Translations under genes and position numbers: made by a program
Notes under the pieces: generated by a model
What the model was told of the DNA's origin: nothing
The model's database searches: none
Seen by the model: only the letters and a program-made list of their open reading frames with translations
In this document: positions 25,504-26,825 of the stretch, one piece after another
How the letters are laid out: every line of letters begins with the position of its first letter
Position numbering within the stretch: the first letter of the stretch is position 1
From: Thomasclavelia cocleata
GTDB lineage: Bacteria > Bacillota_I > Bacilli_A > Erysipelotrichales > Coprobacillaceae
Direction: 5' to 3'
DNA: 46,030 bases
Assembly: GCF_900102365.1 (NCBI RefSeq)
Contig: NZ_FOIN01000021.1
Location: 1-46,030, forward strand

Positions 25504-25842
25504 TTTTTTATATATGTACTATTATAGCTTATTTATAATTATAGGTATATCTATTTATTTACTAGTTTGTATGGATTGGTTTTATAATAGTTTGTAAAAA
25601 TATATTTATAAAAATATAGAAATGAGAGCTGCTAGAAAAGAAAAATAAATGAGATGATGATTTAGATATATTTATGACTGATAAATAATGTTAAAATCTA
25701 TTTGTTTTAAAGCTAAAAATATTCCTTTATTTATATTAATAATTAAAATATGCTTTATAATATAACTTAAAATAAGAAATATTGCCTAAACAATAACAAT
25801 TATGTTACAATTAAATGACCTCATATAGAAAGGAAATAAAGC
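25504..25842. other. AT-rich divergent intergenic region
   Basis: About 340 bp between ogt and the trigger-factor-like gene. I see no gene or structured RNA. Runs of AT could hold promoters for both genes (for example TTGCCT and a downstream TTACAAT about 17 bp apart near 25781-25811), but none is strong. Confidence 0.4.
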
Positions 25843-26793
25843 ATGAGTAAAATTAATAAGTTAGGACAATATAAAGGTGTCGAAGTAAAAGTAAATAAAC
25901 AAGTAGTAACTCAAGAAGAAATTGATAACCAAATAAAAGCTCTTTTAGCTCAAAAGCCAACTCTTGAAGAAAAAGATGGAGAGGTTAGTAATGGAGATGT
26001 TACAACTATTGATTTTGAAGGATTTAAAGATGGCGTAGCATTTGATGGGGGAAAAGCTGAGGGACATCAATTAGAAATTGGATCAGGACAATTTATTCCT
26101 GGTTTTGAGGACCAAATGATTGGAATGAAAAAAGGTGAGACACGAGAATTAAATCTTACATTCCCTGAAAATTATGGTGCTCCAGATTTAGCAGGAGCTG
26201 ATGTTGTTTTTAAAGTAACAGTTCATAAGATTGAAACAAAAAAAGAATCAGAATTGAATGATGAATTTGTTGTTTCATTAAATATTCCTGAAATGCAGAC
26301 TGTAGCTGATTTATATGAAAGTATGAAAGCTAATATCCAAGCTCAACATGATCAAGCATATCAAGCACAAAAAGAAACTGCTATTTTTGATAAAATTTTA
26401 GCAGATAGTGATGTTGAAATTGATGATAGTGAATTACAAAAAGCTTTAGAAAAACATATTCAGCATATTAGTATGCAATTGGCTCAACAAGGAATGCAGT
26501 TGGAACAATATCTTCAAATGATGGGAGTAGATGAAACTGCTTTTCGTCAGCAAATTGAACCATCAGCTAAGCAGCAAGCTATATTTGAAGCTATTATTGA
26601 TGAAATCATAAATGTAGAAAATATTGAAACAAGTGATGAAGAAGTTGATCAGCAAGTGGAATCAATTGCTTCATACAATAAAGTTTCTAAAGAAGAAGTA
26701 TTACAAAAAATAGATCCAGAAGGTTTAAGACATGATTTTAATCGAGTTAAAGCAAGTCGTTTAATTGCAGAAAGCGCAATTGTAACTGAATAA
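25843..26793 (+). CDS. Trigger-factor-like peptidyl-prolyl isomerase lacking the ribosome-binding domain
   Basis: This 316-aa protein begins at the equivalent of the trigger-factor linker (LGQYKGVEVKVNKQVVTQEE). Next come an FKBP-type PPIase domain (about 50-130; TTIDFEGFKDGVAFDGGKAE, IGSGQFIPGFEDQMIGM) and the helical C-terminal chaperone domain (140-316). Normal trigger factor is about 430 aa with a ribosome-docking GFRxGxxP loop at the N-terminus, which is wholly absent. The ATG has a clean AGAAAGGAAA site and no homologous N-terminus lies upstream, so this is a true short form. It probably works as a ribosome-free chaperone or PPIase. It could be the only tig or an extra copy. Confidence 0.88.
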   Translation: MSKINKLGQYKGVEVKVNKQVVTQEEIDNQIKALLAQKPTLEEKDGEVSNGDVTTIDFEGFKDGVAFDGGKAEGHQLEIGSGQFIPGFEDQMIGMKKGETRELNLTFPENYGAPDLAGADVVFKVTVHKIETKKESELNDEFVVSLNIPEMQTVADLYESMKANIQAQHDQAYQAQKETAIFDKILADSDVEIDDSELQKALEKHIQHISMQLAQQGMQLEQYLQMMGVDETAFRQQIEPSAKQQAIFEAIIDEIINVENIETSDEEVDQQVESIASYNKVSKEEVLQKIDPEGLRHDFNRVKASRLIAESAIVTE

Positions 26794-26798
26794 ATATA

Positions 26799-26825
26799 AA
26801 ACCGACAGAATCCTGTCGGTTTTAT
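26799..26825. terminator. Bidirectional terminator between convergent genes
   Basis: AAAACCGACAG and CTGTCGGTTTT form an 11-bp stem with a 4-nt loop between the trigger-factor-like gene and the convergent GNAT gene, with A and T flanks on both sides. Confidence 0.85.

Follow-up and report, generated by a model that had tools for sequence, protein, structure and literature searches.

Copies of the trigger factor (TF) that lack the ribosome-binding domain (RBD) have been described as additions to a complete TF. Wan et al. (2024) reported extra TFs in 390 of 15,241 TF-bearing genomes; in 367 of them the ribosome motif is left in a single TF. Firmicutes account for 238 of the 390 genomes and Clostridia for 209 of these 238 (PMC11559001). 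According to the same paper, three RBD-less TFs of Myxococcus xanthus did not co-sediment with ribosomes, refolded GAPDH and did not prevent its aggregation, and these homologues had stress or spore phenotypes (PMC11559001). Following this survey, RBD-less TF duplicates constitute a class already known, in which function has been tested in one myxobacterium as far as the cited papers show. The remaining 29 Firmicutes in the counts of Wan et al. may include the family studied here. The names searched for this lineage of Erysipelotrichia were not found in the main text of that paper (PMC11559001), and literature on TF in Coprobacillaceae, on ramosum and on TF paralogues contained no description of the protein among the matches listed.

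Here we analysed a stretch of 46,030 nt from Thomasclavelia cocleata (contig NZ_FOIN01000021.1; from here: the window). It encodes a conserved RBD-less TF paralogue in a lineage that the main text of Wan et al. does not name.

Architecture and start site of the window gene

The original prediction described a TF-like protein with complete PPIase and chaperone domains, without the ribosome-docking domain and without an upstream remnant of it, and each of these three statements holds. The features of the locus are as follows (window coordinates, strand, description, basis):

25782..25811, +, putative promoter: TTGCCT at 25782-25787, 18-nt spacer, extended -10 element TGTTACAAT at 25803-25811 (window scan)
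25828..25834, +, ribosome-binding site GAAAGGA, 8 nt 5' of the ATG (sequence inspection)
25843..26793, +, gene of the RBD-less TF paralogue, 316 aa (ORF, Pfam and NCBIfam matches)
25843..25980, +, codons 1-46, a strand and a helix, corresponding to the RBD-to-PPIase linker of full TF (alignments with the own full TF and with E. coli TF, 1w26)
25981..26223, +, FKBP-type PPIase domain, codons 47-127 (FKBP_C, Pfam)
26299..26721, +, Trigger_C chaperone (arm) domain, codons 153-293 (Pfam; AlphaFold2 model)
26801..26820, no strand assigned, terminator-like hairpin ACCGACAG-AATC-CTGTCGGT, common to the convergent downstream gene (sequence inspection; not reported by the terminator scan of the window)

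The ORF scan placed the start at an ATG codon. In Pfam, FKBP_C (PF00254) matched residues 47-127 (3e-18) and Trigger_C (PF05698) residues 153-293 (3.2e-22), and of Trigger_N the last 29 of 144 positions alone were matched, below the cut-off. The NCBIfam equivalog TIGR00115 ('tig') scored 265.7 bits, above its cut-off of 180.2, with the alignment running from profile position 106 to 393 of 410, so that the first 105 positions are absent. The profile NF045969 (trigger factor-related chaperone) reached 42.4 bits, under its 140-bit cut-off. In the alignment with the full-length TF of the same genome, M1 corresponds to residue 120, at which the RBD ends; the start thus coincides exactly with the domain border, and the missing RBD equals residues 1-119 of the full protein. 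An in-frame stop lies two codons 5' of the ATG, the upstream intergenic region is not covered by any ORF of at least 80 aa, and the sole genome-wide match to Trigger_N at E<=0.001 was located on contig C40, inside the full TF, with none near the window gene. These results confirm a real RBD-less trigger factor.

Start codon and N-terminus were identical in all 24 short forms aligned first and in the six found later, and M1, K3, L7 and Y10 were invariant in 24/24. Similar ribosome-binding sites (GAAAGGA/AGGAGG) precede the other short-form loci. All 30 short-form loci carry an extended -10 element, TGNTANAAT, whose distance to the ATG is 26-32 nt (expectation from shuffling, 0.39), and this position leaves no room for an RBD. 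In the scan of the window itself, promoter-like matches taken together did not exceed chance (7 versus 11.9 expected). From the usual -10-to-start distance, the transcript would have a leader of about 20-25 nt. The promoter looks like a vegetative one, as judged from its sequence; in the 30 upstream regions, none of the sigma-E/F/G and 0A-box patterns tried was present. CIRCE or CtsR patterns, for which we used what we take to be the consensus, were likewise absent from these 30 regions, and heat-shock regulation was rejected on this ground. Moreover, an operon partner was rejected, as the neighbours differ across genera in 21 regions.

Paralogy, distribution and descent

Two readings had been proposed depending on whether a complete tig exists elsewhere: a specialised soluble chaperone beside it, or a ribosome-free TF as the only TF of the organism. 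The genome search found a complete tig on contig C40, coding for 436 aa, scoring 415 bits with TIGR00115 and carrying the motif GFRPGKAP. The window TF is therefore a paralogue and not a ribosome-free replacement, so that the first reading stands and the second is rejected. Over their common part, the two proteins share about 41% identity.

We first searched 60 relatives, 37 from the window genome's own family (f1, own genome included) and 23 from family f2. The short form was found in 24/37 and then in 6/6 additional genomes of the own family, altogether 30/43, and in 0/23 genomes of family f2. Its absence from 13/43 genomes of the own family shows that it is dispensable. A full TF was found in each of the 43 genomes (one taken per genome), hence each short form has a full-length companion. 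Within the first 100 residues the motif GxRxG occurs in 0/24 short forms, and GFRxGxxP is present in 35 of the 38 full-length sequences examined as well as in the full TF of the window genome. Further fixed differences set the two forms apart, among them Q244-Q245-A246 in the Trigger_C domain of the short forms versus mostly K-R-V in full TFs.

A phylogeny of 114 TFs groups the 24 short forms found first into one clade with a support of 100/100. The full TFs of the family form a separate clade (99/96), with the short clade outside, but grouping both forms of the family together was not rejected (p-AU 0.297). Branching within the short clade follows mostly the genera, a pattern compatible with vertical inheritance plus losses. 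For 11/11 pairs of short forms dN/dS was 0.05-0.24; their codons are under purifying selection. The label 'specialised' in the original prediction appears justified by this long-term conservation as a separate clade, and 'soluble' by a pI of 4.5 and the lack of a hydrophobic stretch, as far as sequence features can indicate.

A second RBD-less lineage was detected in two genomes (1.4-1.5 Mb) of family f19 from the same class, genus g172, where TFs of 311 residues (L155:695-1630, minus strand; L156:818-1774, minus strand) occur beside a full TF; one of them is listed as 318 residues, counted from an upstream TTG. These TFs are 64% alike. Six other genomes of family f19 were searched and have one TF each. 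A single origin of both short forms was neither shown nor rejected (p-AU 0.547; support 48/68). The class- and phylum-wide tables cover best matches only, and the contig scan for short frames covered at least 80 loci, so that its figures apply among the matches listed. Among the 80 loci listed, three had fewer than 70 codons before the match: L075 is a short form from the own family, the frame of L084 begins inside the RBD, and at L140:3597-4062, on an Oceanobacillus contig, runs of N inside tig split the frame and mimic an RBD-less TF.

Several side observations were made on other TFs. Family f5 has frames of 352 aa, which may result from a different genetic code. Genome G017 of the own family encodes two full-length TFs that are divergent, and pieces of another lie on contig ends (L059-L062), an unusual set because a dosage limit on RBD-bearing TF has been reported. 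In two genomes of family f2, G056 and G450 (99% and 98% complete), the short TF had no match at E<=0.001 among the matches listed, and in G056 Trigger_C was likewise not found among these. Another genome of this family, G059, encodes two long and very divergent TF-like proteins of 409 and 427 aa (L073 and L160), which stand apart in the tree.

Sporulation genes and alternative explanations

One alternative is that the paralogue was kept since spore formation or outgrowth needs a ribosome-independent foldase of the TF type, a reading that we regard as possible but unlikely. Of the 43 genomes of the own family, 31 have Spo0A, counting G009 with its partial match, and 31 have SpoIVA. All 30 genomes with the short form have at least one of these markers, and none of the 10 marker-less genomes has the short form (Fisher p 1.5e-7, with kinship ignored). 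Three genomes speak against the link, since G009 (69% complete), G019 (92%) and G021 (94%) possess a marker but not the short form. In addition, eight of the 10 marker-less genomes belong to one clade, parsimony yields three losses of sporulation, and a kinship-aware comparison has two supported independent pairs alone, which is not significant (sign test p 0.5). Both short-form genomes of family f19 also carry Spo0A, which favours the link; 5/8 genomes of that family have this gene.

The marker-less genomes range from 1.8 to 3.2 Mb, therefore genome size alone is no explanation. Cyclophilin is present in 43/43 genomes and a second copy in all 10 marker-less ones, thus PPIases were not lost there wholesale, which again favours a specific link. 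However, a small FKBP is missing from all 10 marker-less genomes as well, so that the pattern extends in part to other accessory genes, and general gene loss was tested weakly because the controls are nearly universal (cyclophilin 43/43, PF01035 42/43). The vegetative type of the promoter, with the sporulation-type patterns tried absent from the 30 upstream regions, also speaks against the link. Two of the three M. xanthus RBD-less TF mutants were reported to sporulate less, though the spores are of a different kind (PMC11559001). With two to three independent losses and a vegetative-looking promoter, the link is unproven. The broader scenario, in which an RBD-less TF belongs to the sporulation lifestyle of endospore-forming Erysipelotrichia, was gained perhaps twice, was lost with sporulation and serves a stage at which ribosome-coupled folding is insufficient, is therefore put forward as a tentative suggestion that we rather doubt. 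If true, it would name the job of an RBD-less TF.

Regarding the PPIases themselves, the small FKBP (about 125-150 aa) and the second cyclophilin were mutually exclusive in the 43 genomes: in 26 the second cyclophilin occurs alone, in 15 the FKBP alone, two have neither and none has both. In some genomes two such FKBPs lie in one frame, and some frames carry stops.

It is considerably less probable that the short form is a near-neutral relic, which escaped TF dosage toxicity by loss of the RBD and has stayed in the genomes with no function of its own. Full TF in excess was reported to be harmful, an effect relieved when the N-terminal domain is removed (PMC11559001), and the 13 genomes without the short form agree with such a reading. 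The low dN/dS values in all 11 pairs, the invariant residues specific to short forms and the promoter element retained at 30/30 loci argue against it. A start mis-call or sequencing error concealing an RBD, the possibility by which the original prediction might have failed in other strains, is practically out of the question and was rejected, because the identical start in 30/30 genomes, the in-frame stops upstream and the conserved promoter position outweigh the fact that such an artefact does occur elsewhere, at the unrelated Oceanobacillus locus.

Proposed action off the ribosome and comparison with known systems

We consider it probable that the window TF is an N-terminally deficient TF paralogue acting as a ribosome-independent soluble foldase with PPIase activity. 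Its residues F58, F67, I85, F88, Y111 and F123 are invariant in 24/24 short forms and correspond to F168, F177, I195, F198, Y221 and F233, which we take to be pocket positions of the E. coli TF PPIase domain. All of these assumed positions are kept; position 185 alone varies, as it does in full TFs. The AlphaFold2 model has a mean pLDDT of 89.4 and a pTM of 0.59. Its residues 1-316 align over the whole length with residues 111-419 of 1w26 (Z 18.4), with an rmsd of 11.7 whose size presumably reflects domain placement. The closest solved structures are trigger factors, 1t11 and 1w26. The protein is acidic and free of hydrophobic stretches, on which ground a secreted or membrane form was rejected; it is most likely a PPIase-chaperone that diffuses in the cytosol. 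As the basic part of the full TF is its RBD (pI 9.2), the window TF is left without evident ribosome contact.

The following course is proposed. An old duplicate of tig would have lost the RBD exactly at the domain border and would then have been retained. A vegetative-type promoter of its own would drive this gene alone, yielding a soluble cytosolic protein. Because the RBD is missing, the known mode of docking at the ribosomal exit should be unavailable and the protein would act away from the ribosome; an alternative route to the ribosome is conceivable from the sequence. The cradle of the C-terminal domain might bind chains that are only partly folded, whose prolyl bonds the FKBP pocket might isomerise, making the protein a foldase and a weak holdase, with the co-translational role left to the cell's full-length TF. 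We infer the absence of ribosome binding, the PPIase and foldase activities and the substrates in this manner. The clean domain loss, together with the side-by-side presence of both copies in 30 species of the family, offers a natural experiment on TF off the ribosome, and a deeply conserved lineage, probably of gut spore formers, is added to the published class.

Compared with full-length TF (E. coli 1w26 and the own tig), the window TF shares the PPIase domain and the C-terminal cradle and lacks the RBD, including the N-terminal GFRxGxxP that marks the canonical ribosome-associated form. With SlyD/FKBP PPIase chaperones it has the FKBP fold of the PPIase domain in common; its chaperone part is Trigger_C, whereas SlyD has its chaperone part inserted into the flap of the FKBP domain. 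The M. xanthus proteins MXAN_6153, MXAN_1178 and MXAN_1713 were described as extra copies without RBD and GxRxG beside a complete TF, with PPIase and C-terminal domains retained, and the short form, with GxRxG in 0/24 cases and a complete TF in the same genome, resembles them in these respects (PMC11559001). It differs from that set in occurring in Erysipelotrichia with sporulation genes, as one extra copy and with no N-terminal replacement. The plant chloroplast Tig2, likewise a truncated TF paralogue beside a full-length TF, was reported to keep the RBD only (PMC11731035). The window TF misses precisely this domain and keeps everything else, and the two are thus mirror images.
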